Source: an uncultured Kordia sp.
GTDB lineage: Bacteria; Bacteroidota; Bacteroidia; Flavobacteriales; Flavobacteriaceae
Assembly: GCF_947489565.1 (NCBI RefSeq)
Contig: NZ_CANLEA010000026.1
Location: 1-64,000, forward strand
Direction of reading: 5' to 3'
Length of the DNA: 64,000 bases
Below, in pieces: positions 9,326 to 60,734 of the stretch (the stretch's first letter is position 1; every line of letters begins with the position of its first letter). Position numbers and translations under genes: made by a program. The notes under the pieces were generated by a model. It was not told the origin of the DNA, did not search any database, and was given only the letters and a program-made list of their open reading frames with translations.

Positions 9326-9496
9326 TTATCCATCACAATCATCGTCCATATTATTACAACTGTCATTTGGTGTTCTCCCCGCACGTCCTGCATTACGAGC
9401 TGTTCTGTAGGTATCAGAAGCTCCGCCATTGATAAAATTCATTCTACTTACGGTCATTTTTAGGAGTGCAAACTTGCTTAAATTTGATTTTTTCAT
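9326..9496 (-). CDS. GG-leader precursor peptide, lanthipeptide-like (A)
   Basis: A 56-residue peptide. Leader MKKSNLSKFALLKMTVSRMN runs to a Gly-Gly pair at 24-25, followed by a core rich in Arg, Asn and Asp with two Cys (DSCNNMDDDCDG at the end). The leader has the LxxxKxTVSxM pattern of the Bacteroidota class I lanthipeptide-type precursors. The TTTTATAAAA core of the element found before four other precursors lies at 9570-9579, 83 bases before this ATG. The core has few Ser/Thr near Cys, so lanthionine formation is uncertain. It forms a minus-strand pair with the next precursor. Confidence 0.65.
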   Translation of the reverse strand: MKKSNLSKFALLKMTVSRMNFINGGASDTYRTARNAGRAGRTPNDSCNNMDDDCDG

Positions 9497-9569
9497 AATG
9501 ATATTGTTTTGTTAATATGAAAACGAAATACGGCATTTTAGAGAAGTGAAAAAAGAGAAGTTAGTGCGT

Positions 9570-9579
9570 TTTTATAAAA
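9570..9579 (-). promoter_or_regulatory. TTTTATAAAA palindrome before precursor A
   Basis: Ten-base palindrome whose upstream edge lies 83 bases before the ATG of precursor A. The same core occurs 83-87 bases before precursors at 21387, 21721, 27195 and 27487. The flanking bases here differ (GTTTTATAAAAACGC against CTATTTTATAAAATGAA), so this is a weaker copy. Confidence 0.4.
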
Positions 9580-9590
9580 CATCAGACCTA

Positions 9591-9622
9591 AAAAAAGCGA
9601 CTCTTTCAAGTCGCTTTCTTTT
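9591..9622 (-). terminator. Terminator after precursor B
   Basis: AAAGCGACTTGAAAGAGTCGCTTT stem with T-run on the minus strand, directly after the stop of the precursor at 9626-9856. It is almost identical to the terminator at 9979-10006. Confidence 0.85.
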
Positions 9623-9625
9623 TAC

Positions 9626-9856
9626 TTATCTTTTACAGGCAACATTCCAAGACTCACAATCTCTTGTATGGTCACAAGTATCTGTAGGGCAATCGCAAGT
9701 TCCATATACCGCAGAACAAAATAATTTACTAGCTAAAGCTATTGTACCAATTACGCATCCTGCCATCGTGTCTCCTCCTTTTACATATTCTGGATTTTGA
9801 ATTTTAGAAATTTTCTTTTTATTGAGTTCCAGATTTTTAAGCGTCTTCTTTTTCAT
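9626..9856 (-). CDS. GG-leader precursor peptide, lanthipeptide-like (B)
   Basis: A 76-residue peptide with leader MKKKTLKNLELNKKKISKIQ and Gly-Gly at 27-28. The core begins with a hydrophobic, Ala/Ile-rich stretch (MAGCVIGTIALASKLFCSAV) and ends Cys-rich with Thr between cysteines (GTCDCPTDTCDHTRDCESWNVAC). The CPTDTC unit also occurs in precursor J at 60.5 kb. The leader fits the LxLxKxxISxI consensus of class I lanthipeptide-type precursors in Bacteroidota. No modifying enzyme lies nearby. Alternatives are a two-component-type bacteriocin or a signalling peptide released by a C39 peptidase exporter encoded elsewhere. Confidence 0.75.
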   Translation of the reverse strand: MKKKTLKNLELNKKKISKIQNPEYVKGGDTMAGCVIGTIALASKLFCSAVYGTCDCPTDTCDHTRDCESWNVACKR

Positions 9857-9978
9857 AATAATCTATGTTTTTTATGTTTAATTACTCAAAAATCAAATAA
9901 ATATCACACACCTACAATGCACATTTCAAATTCGTTAGACCTCATTTCATAAGTGTATATATGAAACCAACAATACTA

Positions 9979-10006
9979 AAAAAAGCGACTCTCTCAAGTC
10001 GCTTTT
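9979..10006 (-). terminator. Terminator after the TPP-controlled TonB receptor
   Basis: AAAGCGACTTGAGAGAGTCGCTTT stem with seven T on the minus strand, 25 bases after the receptor stop codon. Confidence 0.88.
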
Positions 10007-10030
10007 TAATATGGTAATGGTTGATGTTTC

Positions 10031-12421: not shown

Positions 12422-12513
12422 ATTCGTAATACGTTTTGTTACGAATAAAAGGGGTAATTATTCTAGTTAAAAAATTAAATATATGATGTTGACAGACTAT
12501 GACTGCCGGCATA

Positions 12514-12817: not shown

Positions 12818-13045
12818 ATGAAAAAACAAAATTTTAAAAAGAAGCTAAGCTTAAAAACTACGCGAATCTCAAGTTTATCAAATAGTAATACTGTTTACGG
12901 AGGAAATATTCCGGTGAGATTTACCGATAATCCTTGTATTATCTCTGATGTTGACAATTGCACAACAAAACAAACACAAGCGATTCGTTGTGGTCATACT
13001 ATCGGAAATGGGCAAAACCCAGACGGAACTCCATGTACATTTTAA
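12818..13045 (+). CDS. GG-leader precursor peptide with CGHTIGNG core (C)
   Basis: A 75-residue peptide. Leader MKKQNFKKKLSLKTTRISSL with Gly-Gly at 28-29; core with four Cys ending RCGHTIGNGQNPDGTPCTF. The next gene (13236-13433) encodes a second peptide with an almost identical C-terminus (RCGHTIGNGQDENGNPCTY) but an unrelated first half of the core. Thr and Cys flank each other at NCTTKQT and PCT, compatible with lanthionine rings. The leader is of the class I lanthipeptide type of Bacteroidota. No maturation enzyme is encoded nearby. Confidence 0.8.
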   Translation: MKKQNFKKKLSLKTTRISSLSNSNTVYGGNIPVRFTDNPCIISDVDNCTTKQTQAIRCGHTIGNGQNPDGTPCTF

Positions 13046-13235: not shown

Positions 13236-13433
13236 ATGAAAAAACAGAATTTAAACAGAAAATTGTCACTTAAGACTGCAAAGGTTTCAAAATTAGGAAA
13301 CACTTCGGAAATTATTGGTGGAGCAACTACTTTATGTTCATCAGTATTTTTATGTGAAATTACTCAGTATCACCGTTGTGGACATACAATTGGAAACGGG
13401 CAAGATGAAAACGGAAATCCTTGTACGTACTAA
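13236..13433 (+). CDS. GG-leader precursor peptide with CGHTIGNG core (D)
   Basis: A 65-residue peptide when started at the ATG of 13236, which gives the same MKKQN leader as its neighbours; the longer frame from 13191 adds a non-conserved extension. Leader MKKQNLNRKLSLKTAKVSKL, Gly-Gly at 28-29, core with TTLCSSVFLC followed by RCGHTIGNGQDENGNPCTY. The identical spacing of leader and GG and the shared C-terminus show that it is a paralogue of the peptide at 12818. Cys residues are flanked by Thr and Ser (TLCSS, PCT). Confidence 0.8.
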   Translation: MKKQNLNRKLSLKTAKVSKLGNTSEIIGGATTLCSSVFLCEITQYHRCGHTIGNGQDENGNPCTY

Positions 13434-19625: not shown

Positions 19626-21311
19626 ATGAATTTTGGTTCCCGATTTGTTTTTATCTTTCTTTTCTGTTGCATAAAGAGTCTTACAGCTCAACAAATAGAC
19701 TCCTTACGAACATTATCATATCAAGAATTAAAAAATCAACACAGAAATTTAGAATATACCAATCCTTCTGTAGCGCAAAAATATGCACAAGCACTTTTAT
19801 TGAAAGCAAAACAAGAAGGAAACGATCTTGAAAAAAATATAGCATACTTACTCAATGCTTCTTCCGAGAATTATTTTGGAAACATGGAAGCTTCAATGCA
19901 GTATATTGATTCCTGTATTTCGTATGCCAAAACACAGAAAAATTCTCCCTTATACATTCGTGCCTTAAGTCAAAAAGGAAAAACGTATTACCGATTTGGA
20001 AAATATACAGAAGCCACTAAAAATTATTTAAAGTTTGATTCTATAGCAACAGCAACCGAAAATGTACGCTATTTAATTTATGCAAATCAAGGAATTGGTT
20101 CTGTTAAAAATATTATGGGCGATCATAAAGGTGCTGTAGAATTATTCCTGAAGAATAAAGAAATCATCGCTCCGATTGTAGAAGAGAAAAAATACCACAC
20201 ACAATATTTAAATACCTTGATAGCGCTTTCTTCTGCATATACTTATTTTGATGTAGATGCTGCCGCCAGTTATTTACCTGAACTCAAAAAGATAAGTACT
20301 GATGAAAATGATATGGACGCGTTAAGTTATTATTTTTCACTACAAGGAATTGTAAATTACAAAAGAAAGGAATATGACAAAGCATTGACGGTTTTTCAAA
20401 AAGCAGATAGCTTAGTCTCTCTATTAGGAACAAAAAGAAGTTTATATCCTATTTATCGCTTTCGCGGGAAAACATATTACGAACAACAAAAGTTTCCAGA
20501 AGCGATTGTCACTTTTGAAGCGATTAAAACTCTACAACAAGAAATTGAATTTGACGATTTTAAATACCGAGAAGTCCTTTCACTATTAGCCAATAGTTAC
20601 GAACAAATTGATAGCACTAAAAAAGCATTGGAAAATTATCGTTTGGCGCATAATCTGTCTTATACAGATACCATTCAAGAAAGCATACGATATACCATTT
20701 TAAAGGAGTATGACAAAAAAACCTTGGAAGGAAAAATAGCATCTTTAGAAATTAAATCAACTCAAAAAGAACAGCAAAATACCTCCTTATGGTTTGTATC
20801 TGTCGGACTACTTTTAGCTTTGTTAATACTACTTTGGATTTACAAAAAACAACAGCACGACAATAAGAAGAAATTTGACGAGTTAGTCCAAAAATTAGCT
20901 GCAGAACCTGTTAAAACAGAAGCCACAGAATCATCTCAAAAATTTCAAATTTCGGACGAAAAGATTACCAAAATTTTAAACGGACTTCAAAAGTTCGAAA
21001 AATCGGAAGCGTTTTTACATCAAAACACAAGTTTGGTTACAGTCGCTAAAAAATTAAACACAAATACTACTTATTTGTCGCAAATCGTAAACGAACAAAA
21101 AGGAGTTACGTTTAAAAATTATATTACTGAATTACGTATTAATTATGTCCTACATAAATTGAAAAACGACAAGGTTTTAAGATCGTACAGTGTCAAAGCA
21201 ATTGCCAAAGAATTAGGTTTTAAAAGTGAAGGTGCTTTTTCAAGAGCTTTCAAAAAACAAACAGGTATTTATCCTTCATTTTTTATCAAAAATCTAACAT
21301 CTATTTCATAA
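19626..21311 (+). CDS. TPR sensor with transmembrane helix and AraC-type DNA-binding domain
   Basis: A 561-residue membrane-bound regulator. A signal-anchor (residues 1-21) leads into about nine TPR-like repeats in the periplasm (residues 30-370), then a transmembrane helix near 390-412 (WFVSVGLLLALLILLWIY), and a C-terminal AraC/XylS double helix-turn-helix (about 455-555: SLVTVAKKLNTNTTYLSQIV, then VKAIAKELGFKSEGAFSRAF). This design is common in Bacteroidota and lets an outside signal act directly on DNA. The stop codon lies inside the first copy of the 17-base element that precedes two GG-leader peptide genes, so this regulator is a candidate for controlling them. Confidence 0.85.
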   Translation: MNFGSRFVFIFLFCCIKSLTAQQIDSLRTLSYQELKNQHRNLEYTNPSVAQKYAQALLLKAKQEGNDLEKNIAYLLNASSENYFGNMEASMQYIDSCISYAKTQKNSPLYIRALSQKGKTYYRFGKYTEATKNYLKFDSIATATENVRYLIYANQGIGSVKNIMGDHKGAVELFLKNKEIIAPIVEEKKYHTQYLNTLIALSSAYTYFDVDAAASYLPELKKISTDENDMDALSYYFSLQGIVNYKRKEYDKALTVFQKADSLVSLLGTKRSLYPIYRFRGKTYYEQQKFPEAIVTFEAIKTLQQEIEFDDFKYREVLSLLANSYEQIDSTKKALENYRLAHNLSYTDTIQESIRYTILKEYDKKTLEGKIASLEIKSTQKEQQNTSLWFVSVGLLLALLILLWIYKKQQHDNKKKFDELVQKLAAEPVKTEATESSQKFQISDEKITKILNGLQKFEKSEAFLHQNTSLVTVAKKLNTNTTYLSQIVNEQKGVTFKNYITELRINYVLHKLKNDKVLRSYSVKAIAKELGFKSEGAFSRAFKKQTGIYPSFFIKNLTSIS

Positions 21312-21317
21312 AATGAA
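21301..21317 (+). promoter_or_regulatory. Shared 17-base element, copy 1
   Basis: CTATTTCATAAAATGAA, 86 bases before the ATG at 21387. It differs by one base from the copies at 21631, 27107 and 27398 and overlaps the stop codon of the AraC-type regulator gene. Confidence 0.6.
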
Positions 21318-21386: not shown

Positions 21387-21614
21387 ATGAAAAAACAAAA
21401 ATTGACATTCGTTTCCCTTCAATTAAAAAAAGTAAATATTGCCAATTTAAATACGATTAAAGGAAGCGCAGACCACACAACATTGGAGCCAACTGAAAAC
21501 TCAATTTGTTGTACAGATCCGTTAACTTGTCATCCAACCTTAACCACTAGACCTGATAGTTTTTTTGATTTTACAGATGGTCCAAGATGTAAAGAAACTA
21601 ATCAAGCTGGATAA
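21387..21614 (+). CDS. GG-leader-type precursor peptide with TTRPDS motif (E)
   Basis: A 75-residue peptide. Leader MKKQKLTFVSLQLKKVNIAN with Gly-Ser at 26-27 in place of Gly-Gly; core with CCTDPLTCHPTLTTRPDSFF and a further Cys near the end. The motif C-H-x-T-x-TTRPDS is shared with the peptide at 27195, whose leader is also alike (FKKVxISNLN). The replacement of the second Gly may change or block leader removal. The shared 17-base element lies 86 bases upstream. It follows the AraC-type regulator and is the first of a tandem pair. Confidence 0.72.
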   Translation: MKKQKLTFVSLQLKKVNIANLNTIKGSADHTTLEPTENSICCTDPLTCHPTLTTRPDSFFDFTDGPRCKETNQAG

Positions 21615-21630: not shown

Positions 21631-21647
21631 CTATTTTATAAAATGAA
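21631..21647 (+). promoter_or_regulatory. Shared 17-base element, copy 2
   Basis: CTATTTTATAAAATGAA, 90 bases before the ATG at 21721; contains the palindrome TTTTATAAAA. Confidence 0.6.
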
Positions 21648-21720: not shown

Positions 21721-21894
21721 ATGAAAAAACAAAATGTGAAAAACTTAACCTTGAGCAAGAACACAATTTCAAAATTAATGACTCTTCAACTAACAGGAGG
21801 AGCAAATCATGTATCTGGAGTTATGTGTTCTCAATCGTGTGACCTTATTGACAAGAATACTGTTTTAATTTGTGTAACAGAAGCACGAAAATAA
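21721..21894 (+). CDS. GG-leader precursor peptide (F)
   Basis: A 57-residue peptide. Leader MKKQNVKNLTLSKNTISKLM with Gly-Gly at 26-27, core of 30 residues with three Cys (VMCSQSCDLI and LICVTEARK at the end), the first two flanked by Ser. The leader is a close fit to the LxLxKxxISxL consensus. A copy of the 17-base element lies 90 bases upstream and a long-stem terminator follows, so the gene can be expressed on its own or with the peptide at 21387. Confidence 0.75.
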   Translation: MKKQNVKNLTLSKNTISKLMTLQLTGGANHVSGVMCSQSCDLIDKNTVLICVTEARK

Positions 21895-21959: not shown

Positions 21960-22715
21960 TTACATATCCAACCACTTTTTAAAATTGGTCGTACGTTCGC
22001 GAGAAACAATAATTTGTTCTTCTTTTGGTGAAGGATGTAATTTTAATAACAATCGACTGTTGAAGTAACTGTGAATTTCTTTGACCGCATTTACAGACAC
22101 CATATATTTTCGGTTGATGCGAAAGAAATGAATCGGATCTAAAATTTCTTCCAATTGATCAATAGTATATTCAATTGGACATTTTTGTCCGTTTTTTGTA
22201 TGAAGAAAAATAACACCTTCATCTGCCATAAAATAGGCAATATCTTCTACTTTATAGGTTTTAAATTGATTGCCTACTTTCACCATAAAACGACGTTTGT
22301 ATTCTTTTTTGAATAAATGACGAAGCGTATCAATATCTGCTGTGTTTTGCTGTCGACTATCTACTGTTTCTGTATACTTATTGAGTGCTTTTTTAAGTTC
22401 CGCTTTATCAATAGGTTTTAGCAAATAATCCAATCCGTTGTACTTAAAACCACGAATGGCATATTCGTTATACGCGGTAGTAAATATAATTGGCGGATGT
22501 TTTTCAAGTCGATCTATAATATCAAATCCATAGCCATCATTCAATTGAATGTCTAAAAAAATTAAATCGGGCAAGTCATTTCCTTGAAACCATTTATGTC
22601 CGCTTTCTACGGAAGAAAGTTGCGCCAAAATCTCACAATCAGGCGCCAACTCTTCAATGAGATTTCGCAATCTTCTGGAAGCTATATCTTCGTCTTCTAT
22701 AATTAAAGCTTTCAT
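21960..22715 (-). CDS. LytTR family response regulator
   Basis: A 251-residue regulator: receiver domain (residues 1-120) with the acidic pair EDED at 7-10, phospho-acceptor Asp55 in LIFLDIQLND and TTAYNEYAIRGFKYNGLDYLLKP; LytTR DNA-binding domain (about 145-250) with KVGNQFKTYKVEDIAYFMAD, INRKYMVSVNAV and VSRERTTNFKKWL. It is encoded three bases after its histidine kinase and should be phosphorylated by it. Matches to the LytTR recognition sequence lie in the divergent region at 23872-23976, in front of the kinase gene and of a TonB receptor gene. Confidence 0.94.
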   Translation of the reverse strand: MKALIIEDEDIASRRLRNLIEELAPDCEILAQLSSVESGHKWFQGNDLPDLIFLDIQLNDGYGFDIIDRLEKHPPIIFTTAYNEYAIRGFKYNGLDYLLKPIDKAELKKALNKYTETVDSRQQNTADIDTLRHLFKKEYKRRFMVKVGNQFKTYKVEDIAYFMADEGVIFLHTKNGQKCPIEYTIDQLEEILDPIHFFRINRKYMVSVNAVKEIHSYFNSRLLLKLHPSPKEEQIIVSRERTTNFKKWLDM

Positions 22716-22718
22716 AAA

Positions 22719-23807
22719 TTAGGGAGTTTCTGCTGGTACAACTTCTTTTTGTTCATTTATCAAATCGCTTGAAAGTAATGGCATGCTTACTTTAAATTGT
22801 TCTCCTGTATCTTCAATACGCACTTCTTTTTTGGTATAAAAAGTATATCTTTTTTTAATATTTGCCAGTCCTAATTGTGTAGATGCTTGCGAATCGGAAC
22901 GTTTTCTGATATTATTCTGAACAATGAGCGAATCTTCTTTTGTAAAAATATCTATTGTAATTGGTTGTTCTTTTGAATAATAATTATGTTTCAACGCATT
23001 CTCTACCAACATCTGAATCGACAAGGTTGGAATAACGTGTTTATGTGGTTTAGAATCGATGTTTGTATGAATCGCAATCGCGCCATCATGACGGACTTTC
23101 ATCATAAAGATAAAAGAATCTAAAAACTGTAGTTCCTTTTCTAGACTTACCAAATCACTTTCGCGATTGTCCAAAATATAGCGATAACAACTCGCCAAAC
23201 GCGACACAAAATCAGAAGCCAAATCGCGATCTTCATACATAAGTGAAGTCAGAGTATTTAAGCTATTAAACAGAAAGTGCGGACTTATCTGATTTTTCAA
23301 AGAATTGTACTTCGAAGTCATCATTTCTTTCTTCAATAACTGCAACGATGTTTCTATTTCTTTCTTTTCCTGTGTGGTTCTATAAAACTGATTAAATATG
23401 GTCAAGGAAGTAGTTAGCAAAGCTGCTCGCAAAAAATCTATTCGGAAACGCAGCCACGATTTTTCAAAGTTTAAATCGCAAACGCCGTCTATATGAAAAA
23501 TTCCAACATAATAAATAATAGCAGCCACAGGTAATACTATTGACAAGGTTACCAACAAAACTTTGATACTACTTGAAACCGTTACACTGGCAATAACAGT
23601 CGATTTTTTTTCACGACGTACCAACCAATCATTGATTTCCCAAGTAAGCATAAATAAAGTAAACGCAGAGAAATAATAAAAAATGGCCGTTTTGTTTATC
23701 ACTGACCTCATTTCGTCATGATCAATGGTTAGTTTTACCAATAGAAATACCACCGTGATCACCACAAAACGTATGAGTAACTTCTTTAAATATGCCTTTT
23801 TTATCAT
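22719..23807 (-). CDS. LytS-type sensor histidine kinase
   Basis: A 362-residue membrane kinase. Four hydrophobic segments occupy residues 1-150; then a coiled linker leads to the His_kinase domain with NQISPHFLFNSLNTLTSLMY (phospho-acceptor His) and a HATPase with PTLSIQMLVENALKH and QLGLANIKKRY. It partners the LytTR regulator encoded directly downstream. I start it at the ATG of 23805-23807; a TTG 12 bases upstream is possible. It lacks a periplasmic sensor domain, so the signal is probably sensed within the membrane. Confidence 0.92.
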   Translation of the reverse strand: MIKKAYLKKLLIRFVVITVVFLLVKLTIDHDEMRSVINKTAIFYYFSAFTLFMLTWEINDWLVRREKKSTVIASVTVSSSIKVLLVTLSIVLPVAAIIYYVGIFHIDGVCDLNFEKSWLRFRIDFLRAALLTTSLTIFNQFYRTTQEKKEIETSLQLLKKEMMTSKYNSLKNQISPHFLFNSLNTLTSLMYEDRDLASDFVSRLASCYRYILDNRESDLVSLEKELQFLDSFIFMMKVRHDGAIAIHTNIDSKPHKHVIPTLSIQMLVENALKHNYYSKEQPITIDIFTKEDSLIVQNNIRKRSDSQASTQLGLANIKKRYTFYTKKEVRIEDTGEQFKVSMPLLSSDLINEQKEVVPAETP

Positions 23808-23871
23808 TCGTTGTATCAACTTGTAATTTCAAATATAAGAAGATCTTGATCGGCACAACGGACTTCTTTGT

Positions 23872-23976
23872 TTGAACTGTCGAATAAAACCATGAACTGT
23901 CAAATTCAAACCTTCAATTGAAACTTCTCTTTTTTGAGTCAAAATTTACAATCAAACATTCTCAAAAACAGTTCAA
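23872..23976. promoter_or_regulatory. LytTR binding-site cluster between divergent genes
   Basis: Three matches to the LytTR site [TA][AC][CA]GTTN[AG][TG] lie here. Minus strand ACAGTTCAT at 23892-23900 fits 9 of 9 positions; minus strand ACAGTTCAA at 23872-23880 and plus strand ACAGTTCAA at 23968-23976 fit 8 of 9. The first two are direct repeats 20 bases apart, about two helical turns, as usual for these dimeric regulators. The region lies between the LytS/LytTR operon and the TonB receptor at 24056. Confidence 0.55.
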
Positions 23977-24055
23977 TAGAAAATACCACAACTCAAGATT
24001 TCTTGATTTTAAGTATGATGAAATTCTGTCAAATTTGATCAAAAACTAAGAAATC

Positions 24056-26437: not shown

Positions 26438-26523
26438 TAGTTCGTTTATTGAATTCAATTCTTGGAAACGCCTTGTTCACTGTAAAGCAGGACGTTTTCT
26501 TAACCATTTTAAAAACTAACATT

Positions 26524-27106: not shown

Positions 27107-27123
27107 CTATTTTATAAAATGAA
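27107..27123 (+). promoter_or_regulatory. Shared 17-base element, copy 3
   Basis: CTATTTTATAAAATGAA, 88 bases before the ATG at 27195; identical to copies 2 and 4. Confidence 0.6.
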
Positions 27124-27194: not shown

Positions 27195-27371
27195 ATGAAA
27201 AAACAGAAAGTAACTTCACATGCTCTTACATTTAAAAAAGTATGTATCTCAAATTTGAATCGTATATGTGGTGGCACTAAAGATGAAGAGAAGGAAAAAG
27301 ACACTTACGAAGATACTTGTCATACAGTAACCACAAGGCCTGACAGCCTCATAAATGATCCTGGAGAGTAA
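27195..27371 (+). CDS. GG-leader precursor peptide with TTRPDS motif (G)
   Basis: A 58-residue peptide, too short for routine gene calling. Leader MKKQKVTSHALTFKKVCISN with Gly-Gly at 26-27; the core is very acidic and Lys-rich at first (TKDEEKEKDTYED) and then has TCHTVTTRPDSLINDPGE. The CHxxxTTRPDS motif is shared with the peptide at 21387, 5.8 kb away, although the rest of the cores differ. An unusual Cys occurs in the leader (Cys17) and just before GG (Cys25). A copy of the 17-base element lies 88 bases upstream. Confidence 0.72.
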   Translation: MKKQKVTSHALTFKKVCISNLNRICGGTKDEEKEKDTYEDTCHTVTTRPDSLINDPGE

Positions 27372-27397: not shown

Positions 27398-27414
27398 CTA
27401 TTTTATAAAATGAA
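27398..27414 (+). promoter_or_regulatory. Shared 17-base element, copy 4
   Basis: CTATTTTATAAAATGAA, 89 bases before the ATG at 27487; the match to copy 2 continues for four more bases (TTTT). Confidence 0.6.
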
Positions 27415-27486: not shown

Positions 27487-27672
27487 ATGAAAAAAGCAAA
27501 CATCAAGCTTAGTCTAAACAAAAAGAAAATTTCTAATTTAGAAGCACACACTATCGACGGAGGTGCAGCAACGAATCCTTATGCCAATGTTACGTGTTTT
27601 AGGTGTGACTACACAAAACCTAGAATGGGTTCTTGTTATTATAAGTGTAACCCTGCAAATCCTAGTGAATAA
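27487..27672 (+). CDS. GG-leader precursor peptide (H)
   Basis: A 61-residue peptide started at the ATG of 27487; a longer frame from 27445 would put the leader out of register with the family. Leader MKKANIKLSLNKKKISNLEA, Gly-Gly at 25-26, core with four Cys and many aromatic and basic residues (VTCFRCDYTKPRMGSCYYKC). CxxC and CxxxC spacings could also bind a metal or form disulfides instead of thioether rings. It is the second member of a tandem pair, preceded by its own 17-base element and followed by a terminator. Confidence 0.76.
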   Translation: MKKANIKLSLNKKKISNLEAHTIDGGAATNPYANVTCFRCDYTKPRMGSCYYKCNPANPSE

Positions 27673-30913: not shown

Positions 30914-31120
30914 CTATCCGTCAAATACTCCTTTACAAGTTTCACCTCCACAAAGAGATCTATCACTATTACAATACTCATTACGAGTTCCTGTATTACA
31001 ACAGCCAGTTCCGCCTTGGCAGGGCGCTTCACAACTAACTCCTCCAACTAAAGAATTAGAATGCAAATTACTAATCATGCAATGCTTTAATGCTAACTTT
31101 TTAAATGTTCTTTTTTTCAT
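30914..31120 (-). CDS. GG-leader precursor peptide, Cys-rich (I)
   Basis: A 68-residue peptide started at the ATG of 31118-31120, giving leader MKKRTFKKLALKHCMISNLH and Gly-Gly at 26-27. The core has eight Cys in 40 residues (SCEAPCQGGTGCCNTGT, then YCNSDRSLCGGETCKGVFDG), with Ser or Thr beside most of them. The leader differs from the others in carrying His-Cys in place of the usual Lys-Asn. The 17-base element is not found upstream. Isolated between the M3 peptidase gene and rpmA. Confidence 0.75.
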   Translation of the reverse strand: MKKRTFKKLALKHCMISNLHSNSLVGGVSCEAPCQGGTGCCNTGTRNEYCNSDRSLCGGETCKGVFDG

Positions 31121-50653: not shown

Positions 50654-51433
50654 TTAAATAGTATTTATATACTGAATTAATTTTTTCAGGCTCTTTTCTT
50701 TATTGAGTTTGATGCGATTCTCTTTGATGAATGCATTGATTTCATCTGCTTTGTCAGGAAATAATGCTAAGAGCGCTTTTTTCCTTTTTGGAAGCTTAAT
50801 AGCATGTCCATTGTGTGCTTTTTCAATAAAGAATTCGCAACGCATGTCTTTGAATTCTGTTGTAATAGAAGAAGCTGAATTTCCATAACTAGCTTTGTTA
50901 CGCTTCACCATTTTTTTACATTCTTTCTTGTATAACGAAATGTTGTCACTGTCTTCTAGACTAATATAGTACCCTAAATCGTTTTCTTTATCGCTATCAA
51001 TATTTTCTAAAACTCGGTACGTAATATTATTTGCATGTTGATTGATTACGTAGTTTTTCTTTTTAGAAATTATTAGAATGTCTTCTTTTTCTGCGCCTTT
51101 AACTTCCATTTCGTCCATTAGCGCGTTATAACGAACTAAGTATACTTTATTTACCGGAGCAATATTAGCAGTTGTAAATGACTCTTGCATATAAGGCGTT
51201 CCAAGAGTATTAGGTCCATAGACAACTCCTTGATTTCTAACAACCACTGAATTTAGGTCATTATCAAAATCCATAGAAGCTCTTAAAGCGAGATCAATAC
51301 CATCTGCAGGTGGTTTTTCTCCGTAGCTTCCGCCTTTACAATGTTGTGAAAATCCTTCAAAGCTTAGTAGTAAACAAAATACCATAAGGTATGTTAGCTT
51401 TTTGAATGTGGTTTTGGTGTGAATTGTTTTCAT
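50654..51433 (-). CDS. Secreted protein of unknown function, tandem family member 1
   Basis: A 259-residue exported protein with a signal peptide (LTYLMVFCLLLSFEGFSQ). It shares a layout with the two genes upstream: a pre-domain with GTPYMQESFTTANIAPVNKVY, a repeated-looking beta pattern (VRYNALMDEMEVKG, ILIISKKKNYVINQH, ITYRVLENIDSDKE, LGYYISL, ISLYKKE), then KLPKRKKALLALFP and a C-terminal basic helix ending LKKLIQYINTI. The family is not known to me. Each copy has its own terminator, so each is a separate unit. Confidence 0.72.
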   Translation of the reverse strand: MKTIHTKTTFKKLTYLMVFCLLLSFEGFSQHCKGGSYGEKPPADGIDLALRASMDFDNDLNSVVVRNQGVVYGPNTLGTPYMQESFTTANIAPVNKVYLVRYNALMDEMEVKGAEKEDILIISKKKNYVINQHANNITYRVLENIDSDKENDLGYYISLEDSDNISLYKKECKKMVKRNKASYGNSASSITTEFKDMRCEFFIEKAHNGHAIKLPKRKKALLALFPDKADEINAFIKENRIKLNKEKSLKKLIQYINTI

Positions 51434-51544
51434 AAATAATCTTTTTTTGGTTTAATGTTTATTTAAAGTTACAAAAAAATATGAGTGAGCGAAATTATTG
51501 AAGTATTTTTCACAAATAAGTATTTGATTTTGTTTTATTTACAT

Positions 51545-51580
51545 AAAAAAAGCATCAAACTTTAACGCTTGATGCTTTTA
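51545..51580 (-). terminator. Terminator after the second paralogous gene
   Basis: AAAGCATCAAGCGTTAAAG-TTTGATGCTTTTTTT on the minus strand. Confidence 0.85.
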
Positions 51581-51605
51581 TTATTTTGTATATGTAAGTA
51601 TCTAA

Positions 51606-52352
51606 TTACAATAAATTAACGTATGTAATTATTGCTTTCAAATCTTGATCTTTTGTCACTCTCAACTTATTTTCTTTCATAAATGCCTTTACAACATCTC
51701 TTTTATCTCCAAAAAGTTTTGCAACGCCTCTTCGTGTTCTAGGAAGTTTCTGAACATTTCCGCTACCATTAAATTCTACATAATATACAGTTTTCATTGG
51801 CTGAAATTCTGTAACAATTTCTGGTGCTGGCGTCATGTACGGAGTACTTTCCAAGCCAACTGCTAGCGTTTTAGCATTCTTTTTGTAAAGAGAAACATAA
51901 TCACTTTCCAATAAAACTTCATAATATCCTAAGAGGCTTTTGTCTTCTCTATCGTCTCCATCTAAAATTTTATAAATGGCCCCATTTTCAGTAAAGACAA
52001 TTTTATCCCTAAGGCGACTCTTATTTATCCAACCTTGTTTTTCTTCACTTTGCACTTCCATTTCATCAAGAAACGCATTGTAACGTGCTTTAACTTCTGT
52101 TTCAGTTGAGTCTACACCTATTACCGGACTAAACTCTTCATCAAAATACTGCGAACCTTCTGCAACTTCAATTAAGCTTTTATTCGGGTTTACATATCCG
52201 AGTCCAAATAATGGATTAAAGTGTGGTACAAGAAAAAATGTGAGTGTTGGTGTATTGTTTCGTTTTAACGTTATCGTTTGTTGCGAATACATGTTAGACA
52301 CGAATAACAACATTGCTACACTAAGGCAACTGGTTTTAAAAAATGATCTCAT
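51606..52352 (-). CDS. Secreted protein of unknown function, tandem family member 2
   Basis: A 248-residue exported protein with a signal ending SNMYSQQ. Compared with member 1 the N-terminal part has diverged (FLVPHFNPLFGLGYVNPNKS), while the later strands and the end (EVKARYNAFLDEMEVQS, LLGYYEVLLESDYVSLYKK, KLPRTRRGVAKLFGDKRDVV, DLKAIITYVNLL) keep the same order and spacing. This is the most diverged of the three. Function unknown. Confidence 0.72.
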   Translation of the reverse strand: MRSFFKTSCLSVAMLLFVSNMYSQQTITLKRNNTPTLTFFLVPHFNPLFGLGYVNPNKSLIEVAEGSQYFDEEFSPVIGVDSTETEVKARYNAFLDEMEVQSEEKQGWINKSRLRDKIVFTENGAIYKILDGDDREDKSLLGYYEVLLESDYVSLYKKNAKTLAVGLESTPYMTPAPEIVTEFQPMKTVYYVEFNGSGNVQKLPRTRRGVAKLFGDKRDVVKAFMKENKLRVTKDQDLKAIITYVNLL

Positions 52353-52459
52353 AGCTTTTGGTTTTAATTGTTAATATGTAAAAATATCTTACTTAAATAC
52401 CACAAAAACCTTACCAAATTTCATTTTTTAAAAAGCTTTTTTTAATTCAAAAGACTCTT

Positions 52460-53182
52460 TTACAATGAGTTGACATATCTAATCAATTTTACTAGATCTT
52501 TTTCTTTAGTAAGTTTGATTTTGTTTTCTTTGATAAAGGCTTTTACCTCTTTTTCTTTGCTAGCAAATAACTTGATTACAGATTTTTTCTTTCTTGGAAG
52601 TTTTACTGCAGTTCCATTATCACCATATTCTATATAGAACTCACTTTTTTGCTCTTTGTATTTTGCAGAAGTTCCTCCTAGATTCCCGTTATAAGCAGCC
52701 TGTTTTACTTCTACAAACTTTTTTCTATCCTTTCTATATAGTTTTACATTTTTTCCTTTAGTTAACTGTATATAGTATCCTAGCTTTTCATCTTTTTTAC
52801 TTTCAACATGCTCTAGAATTTTATAGGTAATATTCCCTTTATTCTGATTGATGATGTAGTTTTTGTTCGTCTTATTCATGATCAATGTATCATTCTTCTG
52901 AATAACTTCCATTACATCCAAAGCTACATTGTAACGCACCATAAACACTTTATCTATTGGCGAAATACTTGCTGAGTTGAAGGTTTCATCATAATAAGGT
53001 GTTCCTTCTATATTTGCAGCCAATACTCTTGCCATGTTTTTTTGAAGTATTGCTTGCGACGATAGATCATTATGGAACATTGACGCTTGCACTGCTTGTC
53101 TAGCTGTTTGAGAGAATCCTATAGTAGTTACTAAAATTAGACCACAAAGGGCTACTAATTTTTTCTTGATGGGTAATTTCAT
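52460..53182 (-). CDS. Secreted protein of unknown function, tandem family member 3
   Basis: A 240-residue exported protein with a signal ending TTIGFSQ. It is closest to member 1: ANIEGTPYYDETFNSASISP, VDKVFMVRYNVALDVMEVIQ-like strand, TNKNYIINQNKGNITYKILE, LGYYIQLTKGKNVKLYRKD, KLPRKKKSVIKLFASKEKEV and LVKLIRYVNSL. All three proteins have the motif IxxxNKxxx/VRYN...DxMEV. The function is unknown; the beta-rich secreted fold and basic C-terminal helix suggest a surface or envelope role. Confidence 0.72.
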   Translation of the reverse strand: MKLPIKKKLVALCGLILVTTIGFSQTARQAVQASMFHNDLSSQAILQKNMARVLAANIEGTPYYDETFNSASISPIDKVFMVRYNVALDVMEVIQKNDTLIMNKTNKNYIINQNKGNITYKILEHVESKKDEKLGYYIQLTKGKNVKLYRKDRKKFVEVKQAAYNGNLGGTSAKYKEQKSEFYIEYGDNGTAVKLPRKKKSVIKLFASKEKEVKAFIKENKIKLTKEKDLVKLIRYVNSL

Positions 53183-55628: not shown

Positions 55629-56195
55629 ATGACATCTAAACAAAGTAATTTTTTAAGTATTCTTTCTAAGGGAAAAGAAGAAGATATTCTTGTTCTTTAT
55701 GAGGAAGTATTTCCGAAGGTATTGCACTTTATCACAACCAATAATGGACATATTAGTGATGCTGAAGATGTTTTTCAGAAAGCATTGCTTCAGATTATTG
55801 TTAGATATAGAAAAGAACCATTTACAATTAAAGCTTCTTTTGAGAATTATTTTTTTACAGTCTGTCGTAATTTGTGGAGACGCGAATTGAATAGCTCCAA
55901 ATTAAAAACACACCATCTTGAGACGATTGAAAATATAAGCAATCATGATGATTCAGCCTTTGCTATGGTAGAACAAGAACGCTACGAGTTGTTTCATGAA
56001 AAACTAGCGTTGCTTTCCGAGAATTGTAAAAATATTCTAGAACTGTTTTTCAAAAAAATACCGTATTCCACCATCATGCAAAAATTCCAATACAATTCTG
56101 AAAATGTAGTGCGACAACGTATTTTTAAATGTAAAAAACGACTTGTTGAACTTATAAAAAAAGATGCTAGATATAATGATTTAAAAGATATATGA
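55629..56195 (+). CDS. ECF-type RNA polymerase sigma factor
   Basis: A 188-residue sigma-70 family factor of the extracytoplasmic function type. Region 2 spans about residues 20-90 (VLYEEVFPKVLHFITTNNGH, DAEDVFQKALLQIIVRYRKE, FENYFFTVCRNLWRRELNSS) and region 4 about 125-185 (LALLSENCKNILELFFKKIP, YSTIMQKFQYNSENVVRQRI, CKKRLVELIKKD). It ends overlapping by four bases with the next gene (ATGA). Usually such factors are held by an anti-sigma protein; the next gene product is the candidate. Confidence 0.9.
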   Translation: MTSKQSNFLSILSKGKEEDILVLYEEVFPKVLHFITTNNGHISDAEDVFQKALLQIIVRYRKEPFTIKASFENYFFTVCRNLWRRELNSSKLKTHHLETIENISNHDDSAFAMVEQERYELFHEKLALLSENCKNILELFFKKIPYSTIMQKFQYNSENVVRQRIFKCKKRLVELIKKDARYNDLKDI

Positions 56196-56989
56196 TGGAA
56201 GATGATATACTCATAGAACGATATTTGAAAGGTACACTTTCCGAACAGGAAGAAATAGATTTTTTGAGCCGACTCAATACAGACACTTCTTTTAAAGAGC
56301 AAGTACAACTTGAACAACAAATGTTTACAGTTCTTGGCGATACGTATTGGAGTTTTGCCAGCAATCATACACATGAAAAAGTTGAAGCGTATAAAAAAAT
56401 GCTTGAAAGTGAAGAAACAAGCACATTGAAATCTACCATTTCAAACGCGAATGAAACTTATAAAAAGACACCTCAAAATCAATCTAATCAACCTGAAAGC
56501 AAACGTTCCATATTACATACTAAACTGATATTGCGCATTGCTGCTGTATTGATCATTTTCATTTCTATTCTTTGGTTTTACAGCAATGATAAAGTAGACT
56601 ACAAAGCTATTGCTACAAAAGCATGGAATAAGAATATTGGTTTAGATTTTACTGTAAGAAATGGCACTTCAAATAGTACCAAAGTTAGTTTAGCCAACGC
56701 TTTACAGTTTTATAACAATAAGAAATATGAGCAAGTGATAGCATCACTCAAAAAGTATACAACGACTTCTTCTCATTATAAAGACATTTTAGTCATACGT
56801 GCTGTAACACATTATAAACTAGGTAAAACCTCAATAGCACTTAAAACCCTGGACAGCTTGAAAACCTATGCTCCAGATATTGCGAAATGGTATAAAGGAT
56901 TGATTCATTTAGAAAATAACGAACTAGATAAAGCTTCTCAGTATATACAAATTCCCACAAAATCTAACCAAGACATTAAACTTAAATAA
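56192..56989 (+). CDS. Membrane-anchored anti-sigma-like protein with TPR-like outer part
   Basis: A 265-residue protein. The N-terminal 45 residues (IERYLKGTLSEQEEIDFLSR) look like the start of Bacteroidota anti-sigma/FecR-like proteins without zinc ligands; a transmembrane helix lies at about 112-133 (LILRIAAVLIIFISILWFY); the outer part (140-265) has helix pairs of the TPR kind (ALQFYNNKKYEQVIASLKKY, AVTHYKLGKTSIALKTLDSL). Translation is coupled to the sigma factor gene and the stop is two bases from the CHAT protease gene. A role in holding the sigma factor is inferred from position. Confidence 0.75.
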   Translation: MMEDDILIERYLKGTLSEQEEIDFLSRLNTDTSFKEQVQLEQQMFTVLGDTYWSFASNHTHEKVEAYKKMLESEETSTLKSTISNANETYKKTPQNQSNQPESKRSILHTKLILRIAAVLIIFISILWFYSNDKVDYKAIATKAWNKNIGLDFTVRNGTSNSTKVSLANALQFYNNKKYEQVIASLKKYTTTSSHYKDILVIRAVTHYKLGKTSIALKTLDSLKTYAPDIAKWYKGLIHLENNELDKASQYIQIPTKSNQDIKLK

Positions 56990-56991
56990 AC

Positions 56992-59900
56992 ATGAAAAAA
57001 GGTAGTTATTTTGTGTATGTTTTCCTTTTATTAGGATTGCCAATAATGTTATTCGCTCAAAAGGACTCAACAGCGCAAATACAATTAAATAAAGGACATG
57101 AATTGTTGTTTAATAGCAATTACACAGAAGCTTCTAAAGTGTTTGAAGAAGCATTGACTATAGCTACAAACACTGACGATACTTCAAAAATTGCTGCTGC
57201 TTATAATGGCTTATCAATGACAAGCAAGCGCAAATCAGATTTAAGATCCGCTTTCGAATATGCGCAAAAAGCACTGGAATATAGTAGAAAAGGAAAAGAA
57301 CAAAATACTAGAGAAGAAGCAAGTGCTTTGGAAAACCTCTCCATTGTTCAAAGTTTTATAGGAGACGTAGAGACTTCCCTTAAAAATAGTACGGCAGCTT
57401 TAGAAATTCGCTTGACATATTTTAAAGACGAGAAACTTGCTCTTGCACGCTCTTATTTCTACAATAGTATATCCTTACATGGAATTAGAAAGATTCCAGA
57501 AGCTCTTAAAAAACTAGATATTGCGCTGCAAATACAGACACCAGAAACTCCACAAAGCATCATTTTACATGCAGATATCTATCAAACGAAAGGACATATA
57601 TTTTATGATTTAGGAAAAAACAATCAAGCACTTACTCTTTTTGAAAAAACACTCCAATTGGCGCAAAAAGCACACGATACTAATAATCCATATTTTGGAA
57701 ATGTGTATAACGATATTGGCTTGATACATTCTATTAACGGACACTATCATGAAAGCATCAAGTATTATAAAAAAGCATTGAGTATTAGCATTCATAATTA
57801 CGGCATTGACAATCATGATCAGCAAGTACGCATTCACTTTAATATAGGCACATCTTATCATTTTCTAGACATCAAGGACAAAGCGCTGTTTCATACCAAC
57901 AAAACTTTAGAACTCGGCACTAAATTTTATGGACCTAATCATCCTTCAATGCATTATCCGTATAGTCAATTGGGGAATATTTATGGTGGCGAGAAAGGAA
58001 TTCCTTATCTGGAAAAGTCACTTGAAATTTGCTTAAACAGTCCCCAAATAAATTATGTCATCACTTCTTTTCAATATCAATATTTGGCCGTGCTCCATAA
58101 AGAAATTGAAGATTATGAAGCAGCACAAACCTATTTTCAAAAAGCATTAGATATTAGACTTAAGATTCATGGCAGGCAGAATGTCAACACGATTCGTTCA
58201 TTGAATAATATTGCAAAAATTCATCTCTTAAAAAAAGAGTTTCAAAAGGCGAATATTTTTAATGAAAGAGCACTGAAAAACAATCAACTTACGAATACAA
58301 ATTCTTCGAATCATTTGCCGTCAACCAATTATGTAAATAGTGATTTATTATTGGAGACTTTAAAAACGAAAGCTGATATCTTTTTGGCTCAATTTGAAGA
58401 GACGCATGAAAAAAAGTATTTGAAAGAAAGTATACGATATTACCGTGAAGCGGCTTCGTTTATTGATTTAGCTCGAAAATCGAAACGAAATCATGAGGAT
58501 AAAATGAAGTTTTCAGAAACCATTAAAGCAATTTATATTAAAAATACAGAAACTGCATTGTTGTTGGATGAACTTGAAAATTCGACTTCTTCCTTAGAAA
58601 ATTCATTTTATGCTTCCGAAAAAAGCAAAGCACATACATTGCGAGAATTGCTTCAACAAGCTGAACTTAAACGCAACTCAAATATACAGCCAACGATGAG
58701 CGATTTGGAACAAACTGTAAATACGGAGATTGCGATTTTACAATCGGAAATTTTAGAAGAAGTTTCTAAAGGAAATAGCGATTCTCTGAAGATTTATGAA
58801 TTGGAAGGAAGAGTTTTTGACTTGAACAAACGAAAAGATTCGCTTGAAAAACATATTGAAATTGCGTTTCCAAAATACTATAAATTAAAATATCAAAATA
58901 CGGCTATAGAGGTTTCTACAATCCAAGAAAAATTAAACAACAATACCACACTGATCGAATTTTTTAAAGAGAAAAATACCGTCTATATTTTTACGATCAC
59001 AAAACAATCATTCCATACAGAAAGAGTTCAAATAGACAATGTAGATTCCAAAATTACCGATTTAAACACTGCAATTATCCACAAAGATCAAGTTCAATTT
59101 CGCAAACATGCTTCCAACTTGTATCAAGAATTGATTGCGCCTGTAAAAAAACATATTGTAGGTGATGAATTGATTATTATTCCTGATGAATCTTTATGGC
59201 GGATTCCATTTGATTTATTATTGACAGAAACGTCTAAAAACGAAGAAAAGCCAGCTTATTTATTGTATGAGTATGCAATTAGCTATACAAATTCTGCAAG
59301 TTTATTTTTTGATGAATCTGAAAACATTCAAACTTCAAATTTCAAGAACGAATGTGCTGCTTTTTCATTTACAAGCACAGATACACTCCAAAAAAACAAC
59401 AACACAATTCGCTTGGAAGAATTGCGAAACTCTCAAATTGACTTGCCAGGCACACGCGAAGAGATTCAGAAAATATCAACTATTTTAGATGGTACTTATT
59501 TTTATGGAAATGCTGCCAATGAAATGAACTTCAAAAAATATGCAAATACTTCTAGAGTTTTGCATTTGGCGTTGCATGGTGATATTGATAACAATAATCC
59601 TGATAACTTGAAAATTTACTTTTCCGAAGGAAGCACTACAGAAGACGATATATTATTTAGTCATGAATTGTATTCAATGCACATTCCAGCAAATTTAGTA
59701 GTACTGAGCGCTTGCAACACAGGAAACGGCAAAGTAAATAGAGCAGAAGGAATTCAAAGTCTTGGAAATGCATTTCAATATGCCGGAGCAAAGAGTTTGT
59801 TGTTGAGTAGCTGGGAAATTTCAGATAAAACGACACCTGAAATTATGCGTCAATTTTATAAGAATATAAAAGAAGGCATGCCAAAACATAAAGCATTACA

Positions 59901-60090
59901 GCAAGCTAAAATAGATTTTCTACAAAATGCAGATACATTTGATGCCGCGCCTTTTTATTGGGGAAGTTTTTATTTGCTAGGAAACACACAACCCATTCAG
60001 TTTGAAACCTATAATTATACATATTGGCTCATAGGAATCAGTATATTTCTACTACTGTTATTTTTTATTCTTAAAAAGAAAAGGCGCTAA
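56992..60090 (+). CDS. TPR-CHAT protein (caspase-like peptidase domain)
   Basis: A 1032-residue exported, membrane-anchored protein. After a signal (MLFAQ, residue 23) come about ten TPR repeats (residues 30-430; for example NVYNDIGLIHSINGHYHESI), a helical linker to about 640 and a C-terminal CHAT domain (about 700-995). The catalytic pair is visible: His862 in VLHLALHGDID and Cys908 in LVVLSACNTGNGK, followed by GIQSLGNAFQYAGAKSLLLS. A C-terminal transmembrane helix (YWLIGISIFLLLLFFIL) ends in a basic KKKRR tail. CHAT is a caspase-like peptidase fold, and CHAT proteases in other systems cut a partner after activation. The sigma factor and anti-sigma-like genes upstream and the Cys-rich GG peptide downstream are candidate partners. 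Confidence 0.9.
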   Translation: MKKGSYFVYVFLLLGLPIMLFAQKDSTAQIQLNKGHELLFNSNYTEASKVFEEALTIATNTDDTSKIAAAYNGLSMTSKRKSDLRSAFEYAQKALEYSRKGKEQNTREEASALENLSIVQSFIGDVETSLKNSTAALEIRLTYFKDEKLALARSYFYNSISLHGIRKIPEALKKLDIALQIQTPETPQSIILHADIYQTKGHIFYDLGKNNQALTLFEKTLQLAQKAHDTNNPYFGNVYNDIGLIHSINGHYHESIKYYKKALSISIHNYGIDNHDQQVRIHFNIGTSYHFLDIKDKALFHTNKTLELGTKFYGPNHPSMHYPYSQLGNIYGGEKGIPYLEKSLEICLNSPQINYVITSFQYQYLAVLHKEIEDYEAAQTYFQKALDIRLKIHGRQNVNTIRSLNNIAKIHLLKKEFQKANIFNERALKNNQLTNTNSSNHLPSTNYVNSDLLLETLKTKADIFLAQFEETHEKKYLKESIRYYREAASFIDLARKSKRNHEDKMKFSETIKAIYIKNTETALLLDELENSTSSLENSFYASEKSKAHTLRELLQQAELKRNSNIQPTMSDLEQTVNTEIAILQSEILEEVSKGNSDSLKIYELEGRVFDLNKRKDSLEKHIEIAFPKYYKLKYQNTAIEVSTIQEKLNNNTTLIEFFKEKNTVYIFTITKQSFHTERVQIDNVDSKITDLNTAIIHKDQVQFRKHASNLYQELIAPVKKHIVGDELIIIPDESLWRIPFDLLLTETSKNEEKPAYLLYEYAISYTNSASLFFDESENIQTSNFKNECAAFSFTSTDTLQKNNNTIRLEELRNSQIDLPGTREEIQKISTILDGTYFYGNAANEMNFKKYANTSRVLHLALHGDIDNNNPDNLKIYFSEGSTTEDDILFSHELYSMHIPANLVVLSACNTGNGKVNRAEGIQSLGNAFQYAGAKSLLLSSWEISDKTTPEIMRQFYKNIKEGMPKHKALQQAKIDFLQNADTFDAAPFYWGSFYLLGNTQPIQFETYNYTYWLIGISIFLLLLFFILKKKRR

Positions 60091-60470
60091 TTTCAAACAG
60101 CTAAATATCAGTACTTTAAAAATTATTCACATTATTTTCTCAAAAAAAGTGAAAAATACTGGGTAACAAATCTCTTTTTTTGGAACTATAAGTTATGGGG
60201 AGTAACTGTTTTAAATTTAAAAATACGCTAATTGACAACAAATACTTCGTTATGCTTTGGCGTAAATTCAATTTGAATATCACTAGTTTTTACGACTTCT
60301 TCTTTAGAGCAAACATCACTATTCTCTCCTTATTTTCAATTCAAAACACAAAAGATACTTACATAAAAACCGATTGTTATCTTTTTAAAAATATTCTTTC
60401 GCGAAGAATAGACACAAAAGTGAGTGTCTTAAAATGTTCACTAAGGAATTAACTCTTACACATTTAAATT
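60091..60470. other. Intergenic region with two adjacent hairpins before precursor J
   Basis: No supported gene; an open frame at 60195-60452 has no recognisable features. 60393-60409 is an imperfect palindrome (ATTCTTTCGCGAAGAAT) and 60411-60428 pairs GACAC with GTGTC, both 45-80 bases before the ATG of precursor J. TTTTTAAAAA at 60382-60391 lies at a distance (89 bases) similar to that of the shared 17-base element but with other flanks. Confidence 0.45.
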
Positions 60471-60734
60471 ATGAAAAAAAGAAATCTTAAATCATTACGT
60501 CTTAACAAGAATACAGTTTCTAGTCTTAAATCAGAAAATGTTAAAGGTGGAGCAACACAGTCTTGTTTTATTGATGTGGATACAAATTGTGCAAAATCGG
60601 TAGGTTGCAACTTTACTGTTACCTGTCCAACAAATGCATGTCCAACTGACACATGCCCAACAAATACATGTCCTCCTCCAACAGCATTTACATGTATTTT
60701 AAGCATCTCTTGTCCTGCAAACGGAATTTGCTAA
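60471..60734 (+). CDS. GG-leader precursor peptide, Cys/Pro-rich (J)
   Basis: An 87-residue peptide. Leader MKKRNLKSLRLNKNTVSSLK with Gly-Gly at 26-27, then a core of 60 residues with eleven Cys, including near-repeats NACPTDTCPTNTCPPPTAFT. Thr next to Cys (TDTC, TNTC, TVTC) is compatible with many thioether rings, or the repeats could bind metal. The CPTDTC unit is shared with precursor B. The gene lies 380 bases after the CHAT protease gene on the same strand, so the peptide may be matured or released in connection with it; unproven. Confidence 0.78.
   Translation: MKKRNLKSLRLNKNTVSSLKSENVKGGATQSCFIDVDTNCAKSVGCNFTVTCPTNACPTDTCPTNTCPPPTAFTCILSISCPANGIC

Follow-up and report, generated by a model that had tools for sequence, protein, structure and literature searches.

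The stretch of DNA analysed here, called the window throughout, comprises 64,000 nucleotides from an uncultured Kordia sp. of the Flavobacteriaceae (NCBI RefSeq assembly GCF_947489565.1, contig NZ_CANLEA010000026.1, positions 1 to 64,000), and it carries ten short open reading frames (ORFs) with the look of peptide precursors, together with a gene for a TPR-AraC regulator. A preliminary description made from the letters alone had presented the ten as orphan precursors with a double-glycine leader, and the translations agree with it: every product starts with MKK, continues in a basic leader that ends in GG (nine of ten) or GS (the ORF at 21387), and closes with a core that contains Cys in all ten cases. 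Seven ORFs lie on the plus strand and three on the minus strand. Precursors 1 (9326..9496, GG, a core with two Cys) and 2 (9626..9856, GG, a Cys-rich core) are read from the minus strand, and are followed on the plus strand by precursors 3 (12818..13045), 4 (13236..13433), 5 (21387..21614), 6 (21721..21894), 7 (27195..27371) and 8 (27487..27672), then by precursor 9 on the minus strand (30914..31120) and precursor 10 on the plus strand (60471..60734). Precursor 5 is of the type that is paired with a regulator. The cores had been said to differ mostly from each other, which holds for most of them but not for two pairs. Indeed, precursor 3, whose core ends as that of precursor 4 does, has the stretch RCGHTIGNGQxxxGxPCT in common with it, and TxTTRPDS recurs in the cores of precursors 5 (TLTTRPDS) and 7 (TVTTRPDS). 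A regular expression for the leader, fitted after the fact, retrieved exactly the same ten ORFs from the window, as against a mean of 0.01 and a maximum of 1 in 100 simulated order-2 Markov sequences of the same composition. Nif11 in NCBIfam gave no match for any of the ten.

Directly upstream of precursor 5 lies the TPR-AraC gene (19626..21311, plus strand; Pfam, hydropathy, model), whose product is the putative receptor of that peptide. It has a signal peptide, TPR repeats, one transmembrane helix at about residues 386-405 and a C-terminal HTH_18 domain of the AraC type, and thus looks like a membrane receptor; the structure model has a mean pLDDT of 83 and a pTM of 0.58. A box search on the plus strand found the sequence CTATTTCATAAAATGAA at 21301..21317, 86 bp 5′ of the ATG of precursor 5, and the sequence CTATTTTATAAAATGAA at 21631..21647, 27107..27123 and 27398..27414, at 90, 88 and 89 bp 5′ of precursors 6, 7 and 8, so that the box CTATTT(T/C)ATAAAATGAA stands 86-90 bp upstream of the ATG in all four. 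With up to three mismatches the window holds seven matches to the box against 2.2 expected, and its three exact matches and one single-mismatch match are the boxes of precursors 5 to 8. In several other Kordia, too, boxes of this kind stand ahead of related peptides.

The LanB cassette and the leader family

The preliminary description had noted that LanB, LanC and C39 transporter genes are missing from the window, and this was borne out: the genome-wide matches to PF04738, PF03412 and PF05147 all lie on other contigs, and neither LanB nor LanC has a match on this contig that would place it in the same cluster as the ten ORFs. The same claim for radical SAM enzymes stands as far as the SPASM domain, through which alone they were looked for and which has no match on this contig. 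Four SPASM matches occur in the genome, and we set aside a radical SAM/SPASM maturation on the basis of this SPASM-domain search, since the nearest listed leader-family ORF is about 9.5 kb from a SPASM match (contig C3).

The source genome (6.42 Mb in 100 contigs) was searched for LanB and LanC, C39 exporters and further leaders, as had been suggested, and all were found. The LanB N-domain (PF04738) has exactly one match, on contig C2, within a run that reads sigma-70 region 2 protein, TPR protein, LanC (161 bits in Pfam), LanB N-domain (Lant_dehydr_N, 500 bits), Lant_dehydr_C (245 bits), TPR-AraC protein and three precursors, followed on the minus strand by HlyD and a C39 ABC transporter, both of which also match in Pfam. 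A LanB cassette with LanC and C39 is therefore present in this genome, and the three precursors that share a cluster with LanB and LanC carry the same leader family as the window ten. The C2 LanB gave structure matches to NisB and other LanB proteins over most of its length; it shares 88-97% identity with LanB from eight named Kordia records, which points to Kordia as the genus. The first half of a separate 302-aa protein matched the C-terminal part of the same LanB structures, and the protein matched Pfam Lant_dehydr_C over its full length. The C2 LanC could be aligned with NisC across the AWCYG and CHG motifs, which we take to hold the zinc ligands and a catalytic role. Three further C39 (PF03412) matches are found elsewhere in the genome.

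The leader family proved to be large. A profile of the ten leaders gave at least 150 matches among the best of 452 first-look candidates, a lower bound because the three precursors beside LanB are not among them; the 11 other searches, one per Kordia genome, gave 86-147 members each among the matches listed (E<=0.001, up to 150 scored). A refined profile, whose last iteration let through no decoy at E<0.01, recovered 225 leader-family peptides in the examined stretches, and with further stretches and a second profile the set grew to 269 ORFs without overlapping members, on 34 contigs and in 1,151,618 bases (18% of the genome), again with no decoys at E<0.01 with either profile. Most of these stretches were picked for holding a leader match or a regulator, and twenty 20-kb tiles, chosen by hand for having no listed matches, contained five leader-family ORFs. 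Applied to the remaining 5.27 Mb, the density of these non-randomly chosen tiles would add about 66 members and give an estimate of about 335 for the whole genome (Poisson range about 290-420); this Kordia probably has a family of about three hundred scattered peptide genes.

Among the 225 peptides, the motif LxLxKx5L is present in 217 in a loose form, in 170 with [LFIM] at its end and in 119 in the strict form, and the leader ends in GG in 210, the others having AG, GA, GQ, GR or GS. Cys makes up 0.1% of leader residues as against 11.2% of core residues; it is present in 221 of the 225 cores, in odd number in 105, and Ser plus Thr equal or outnumber Cys in 221, Thr being the most frequent core residue. 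In 23 paralog pairs whose cores could be aligned, some of them not independent of one another, pN/pS was 0.21 for leaders and 0.41 for cores; judged by these ratios, the leader-family ORFs are real genes whose cores are evolving faster than their leaders.

We then compared the distribution of the leader with that of LanB. Of 199 genomes of the family, 18 have LanB and nine have leader matches, eight of the nine being LanB-positive (8/18 versus 1/181, p=7e-9; Kordia-built profile, E<=0.001, with 41 candidates scored in the two Kordia genomes and all candidates in the other genomes listed). In four non-Kordia genomes, chosen among LanB-positive genomes with leader matches, a leader-family precursor adjoins the LanB cassette. 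Twenty named LanB loci that were not chosen by leader gave the same picture, with at least one leader-family precursor within about 8 kb of LanB in 19 of them (Kordia, Lacinutrix, Leptobacterium, Psychroserpens, Aquimarina and an uncultured flavobacterium); the lone locus without one is an 8-kb Aminicenantes contig. Since the leader tracks LanB in genomes and adjoins LanB at named loci, it is, on this comparative evidence, the leader of the LanB system, and the window ten are therefore likely to be trans substrates of that system.

We propose that the ten are class I (LanB/LanC-type) lanthipeptide precursors with a double-glycine leader. The shared LxLxKx5L leader would guide the C2 cassette to the dispersed precursors, and the cassette, with its LanB glutamylation domain, separate elimination domain and LanC, would dehydrate and cyclise their cores in trans; the C39 exporter would cut after GG and secrete the peptides. 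We strongly favour this account of maturation by LanB, LanC and C39. The preliminary description had already suggested that one modification and export system elsewhere in the genome could act on many substrates, and a single LanB cassette, at least 269 leader-family members and a leader that tracks LanB make one trans-acting class I system with many substrates appear well supported. Its notion of one system is right in that LanB is single, but the genome also has other LanC modules with same-leader precursors of their own, and the picture was incomplete for lack of the paired receptor-regulators described below.

These LanC modules belong to the points that weigh against the proposed maturation. 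Six LanC-like matches occur in the genome, five of them outside the C2 cassette in four loci. In three loci LanC stands with a nucleotidyltransferase, no LanB and one same-family precursor each (L158:8220-10550 on contig C27, L159:8449-10495 on C2 and L160:6800-10062 on C6), where an alternative activation chemistry is possible. In the fourth (L157:6181-9972 on C16), which presumably resembles class V lanthipeptide machinery, an APH-like kinase, a HopA1 family protein and LanC accompany one same-family precursor with a GG leader. Because six LanC-like matches exist, the LanC-nucleotidyltransferase or APH/HopA1/LanC modules may handle some precursors instead. In addition, none of the ten ORFs passes the curated cut-off of 22 bits for NCBIfam NF038153 (lant_leader_L1a), the best reaching 17 bits, with sub-threshold matches at E<=1 for seven and no match for three; the Kordia-built profile found no leader match at E<=0.001 in ten of the 18 LanB-positive genomes and found one in a LanB-negative genome (G199); and four of the 225 cores are free of Cys. 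The strongest alternative is that several machines share the substrates through the same leader, namely the LanB cassette, the LanC-nucleotidyltransferase modules and the class V-like module. The one same-leader precursor at each of the four loci speaks for such sharing and the single LanB against it, the family-wide association having been computed for LanB; we regard sharing as a serious candidate that falls clearly short of an even chance.

TPR-AraC regulators and the peptides behind them

The regulator of the window has many relatives in its own genome, where we obtained at least 50 TPR-AraC matches (150 of 173 candidates scored). After five partial matches were left out, 45 were near full length, including that at 19626-21311, and a same-strand leader-family ORF begins within 700 nt of the 3′ end in 41 of the 45 at E<0.01 and in 43 at E<0.1, with the nearest paired peptide starting 55-165 nt past the aligned end of the regulator. 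In the tiles, which are peptide-poor by choice, 134 ORFs were 300 aa or longer, and none had a leader-family ORF behind it. In a stricter control over all examined DNA of this genome, which is peptide-rich by choice, this was the case for 31 of 298 other ORFs of at least 300 aa within 700 nt and for 19 of 298 within 200 nt, versus 38 of 40 TPR-AraC ORFs at both distances. The regulators also tend to occur with LanB: at least 17 of the 18 LanB-positive genomes have one, versus at least 29 of the 181 LanB-negative genomes (p=2e-11, up to seven candidates scored per genome), and in 11 of the 18 the coordinates place a TPR-AraC gene no more than 6 kb from LanB. In other genera, a paired peptide was found at 13 of 30 TPR-AraC loci (30 of 43 matches, locus L204 with an internal stop in the regulator being counted as a miss), and these come from all nine genera with matches.

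The first peptide behind a regulator tends to be a distinct subtype. I-A replaces I-S in its leader in 12 of 19 cases versus 28 of 206 other peptides, and Cys makes up 7.3% of its core versus 11.6%; among all 82 regulator-peptide pairs, 46 have I-A and 29 have I-S. In other Kordia, seven peptide-followed regulators that are 66-83% identical to 19626-21311 precede cores with (T/S)TRPDS, four that are about 51% identical precede cores with CPTTxxPR(T/A)D, and two more distant ones precede other cores. Over the 82 pairs, similarity of the regulator was correlated with similarity of the core (Mantel 0.35 for the TPR part and 0.30 for the HTH part).

Precursor 7 resembles precursor 5 in its core, and no regulator adjoins it. 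A peptide 66% identical to it lies directly behind a TPR-AraC gene in a stretch of another Kordia (L163), and because of this arrangement precursor 7 may have lost its own regulator in the present genome.

An inverted repeat of at least eight of nine pairs was found between regulator and paired peptide in 25 of 43 cases versus 37 of 209 control regions; for perfect repeats the counts were 13 of 43 versus 12 of 209. The window's own regulator-peptide repeat has seven pairs and falls below the mark. Copies of these boxes in the examined DNA lie upstream of leader peptides in 99 of 438 cases, compared with 6 of 261 for shuffled boxes, a copy matched by several boxes being counted more than once. 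TAnnTTTG, a promoter box common in Bacteroidota, showed no enrichment ahead of the peptide genes (30/225 versus 37/217 controls).

We propose that a distinct subset of peptides, each encoded about 100 nt behind a TPR-AraC gene, act as dedicated signals for the receptors encoded there. Once mature, such a signal would bind the TPR domain of its receptor at the periplasmic face of the inner membrane; the HTH, in the cytoplasm, would then act at the inverted-repeat box that lies about 85 bp 5′ of the gene for the signal itself and of genes for effector peptides nearby. The regulon in the window would consist of the regulator 19626-21311, its signal peptide (21387) and three further peptides, 21721, 27195 and 27487. 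We lean only slightly towards this receptor-ligand assignment.

Several observations speak against such an assignment. Foldseek searches with the TPR-AraC model returned generic TPR superhelices, complexes of LGN/Pins with peptides coming first, a result that is compatible with peptide binding and is no evidence for it. There was no paired peptide at 17 of the 30 loci in other genera; at least 29 genomes have TPR-AraC genes in the absence of LanB; and in two tandem TPR-AraC arrays (G087:C1:1054560-1066642 and G112:C1:1594358-1603205) no leader peptide stood behind the three and four members read, so the regulators of such arrays may have other partners. The correlation between regulator and core can arise from duplication or shared descent of whole modules. 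Moreover, a C39/HlyD exporter is expected to deliver peptides beyond the outer membrane, and because of this the ligand of a periplasmic TPR domain would need to re-enter; no uptake route was identified. Such points could equally be expected if the TPR-AraC proteins were local transcription factors that sense other cues, such as envelope stress or substrates, and the adjoining peptide were their regulated product and not their ligand, with the one trans-acting class I machine kept. Adjacency and shared boxes would look identical in that case, and the LanB-negative genomes, the peptide-less arrays, the generic TPR fold and the missing route of return are all in keeping with it. The tendency of the first peptide to be a distinct subtype, with more I-A and fewer Cys, tells against it, as does the way in which the core tracks regulator type across species, though shared descent would also explain the latter. 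We consider local regulation of this kind unlikely, if far from negligible.

Genes around the precursors

Several of the ten precursors adjoin housekeeping-like genes, namely AhcY and an M3 peptidase (assigned in a Pfam run on 12 window proteins) and the ribosomal proteins L21/L27 (recognised by eye). When ten Kordia stretches were compared around the M3 peptidase, one of them (L166, which begins at a contig end) on the right side only, the flanking genes were mostly 80-98% identical and the peptide genes varied in number and sequence. In one Kordia stretch (L170, genome G008), the genes for the TPR-AraC protein and the TonB-linked receptor appear to be broken into fragments; this stretch yielded no paired peptide, and its M3 peptidase shows only 48% identity.

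Amid the peptide genes, a block at 21960-27066 contains a histidine kinase/LytTR pair, a TonB-linked receptor and a DUF1569 protein; it lies at the same place in two other Kordia stretches (L168 and L171) and is not found in several others. Three tandem secreted proteins of 240-259 aa, apparently related and with similar C-termini, are encoded at 50654-53182. Precursor 10 lies 3′ of a run (55629-60090) formed by a sigma-70 region 2 gene, a 265-aa ORF and a TPR-CHAT gene. A pair of sigma and TPR-protein genes also stands 5′ of LanC-LanB on contig C2, as may be compared with this run.

The combined reading and known systems

What we observed are genes and their domains, associations across genomes, adjacency and shared boxes, and the explanation that best unites them, trans-matured lanthipeptides together with receptor-paired signal peptides, seems to us probable as a whole. 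Enzymatic modification, export, topology, ligand binding, DNA binding and the biological role are predictions from sequence within it. More tentatively, and with a chance somewhat below even, there could be about forty parallel lanthipeptide pheromone channels, each with its own TPR-AraC receptor, ligand and operator, whose ligands would pass, along with several hundred effectors, through one LanB/LanC/C39 line.

Two further alternatives fare worse than those weighed above. Many of the dispersed ORFs might be unexpressed or decaying duplicates that persist, as the fast turnover between Kordia species would suggest; we find this improbable in view of purifying selection on leaders (pN/pS 0.21) and cores (pN/pS 0.41), of boxes at a near-fixed distance 5′ of start codons, and of the 86-147 members that all 11 Kordia genomes searched keep among the matches listed. 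That the peptides belong to what we would assume to be a bacteroidetocin-like family, with a C39-cut GG leader and Cys as disulfides in place of lanthionine chemistry, would fit the leader, the C39 exporters and the Cys-rich cores, but is very improbable given that the leader tracks LanB and adjoins LanB/LanC in other genera, that the number of Cys is odd in 105 of 225 cores, and that Thr is the most frequent core residue.

Parts of this picture are already in print, namely the leader type with GG and C39, the richness of Kordia in ribosomally synthesised and post-translationally modified peptides (RiPPs) and the pairing of LanC with a nucleotidyltransferase. In the part of PMC7268733 available to us, class I precursors of Bacteroidetes are described with LxLxKx5L leaders, GG in many of them, LanB/LanC and a C39 protease often in the cluster, and the motif, the GG, C39 and LanB/LanC are the same here. 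That survey sought precursors within seven genes of a LanC-domain protein, whereas here the great majority of the leader-family ORFs found are remote from LanB, and a TPR-AraC gene is paired with many of them. According to the accessible text of PMC11118758, a Bacteroidota genome can have as many as 176 RiPP precursors, Kordia being given as an example; LanC is noted there together with a nucleotidyltransferase close to precursors of Kordia, and where a precursor has no neighbours, modification by a ProcM-like or a distant enzyme is proposed. Unlike the present analysis, its text passages contain no assignment to a single LanB, no TPR-AraC pairing and no operator boxes. From what we could consult of PMC10783134 and PMC9872173, SyncM of marine picocyanobacteria has up to 79 substrates, and many prochlorosin-type precursor genes lie far from their LanM (PMC7268733, same part). 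The likeness is that of one tolerant synthetase acting in trans on many precursors, an action by one enzyme that is predicted from sequence in our case. In those systems, as far as the same sources describe them, the enzyme is a class II LanM and the leaders are of the Nif11 type, whereas here they would be class I LanB/LanC and LxLxKx5L, with 269 members and receptor-regulator pairs. A lanthipeptide cluster is among those listed in the part seen of a Kordia genome paper, the corresponding part of a Flavobacteriaceae survey features Kordia for other clusters, and a Bacteroidales RiPP survey, in its accessible portion, mentions TPR genes in two clusters with possible pheromone binding. The last is the closest that we found in the open-licence literature, where no account came to light of lanthipeptides paired with TPR-AraC regulators or of the boxes that go with this pairing.

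Two traits of pheromone networks are seen here: the regulator gene adjoins the peptide gene (41 of 45), and the same box stands 5′ of signal and putative effector genes (precursors 5 to 8). In bacteriocin pheromone control through histidine kinases, a secreted GG-leader peptide is the signal, and signal and effector leave through the same exporter; in RRNPP receptors, a TPR domain is the peptide receptor. By analogy, the proposed system would share the secreted GG-leader peptide and common exporter with the former and the TPR peptide receptor with the latter, although RRNPP receptors are cytoplasmic. The putative receptor here would be neither a kinase nor cytoplasmic, but a membrane one-component protein with TPR outside and an AraC-type HTH inside.

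Taken together, the data suggest a lanthipeptide signalling and effector network in which many receptor-peptide pairs are served by one maturation and export line. If this holds, a single class I dehydratase would accept hundreds of natural substrates. Such tolerance would be useful for engineering and would parallel the prochlorosins in another enzyme class, and membrane one-component peptide receptors would be added to the means of cell-cell communication in Gram-negative bacteria. The receptor pairing would give a concrete function, signalling, to part of a huge orphan peptide family. Should there indeed be about forty channels, they would form a new class of Gram-negative peptide signalling, with what would be, to our knowledge, the largest substrate set of any one lanthipeptide machine. 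The many sets of peptide, receptor and box within one Kordia genome would then amount to a natural experiment on how signalling specificity diversifies.

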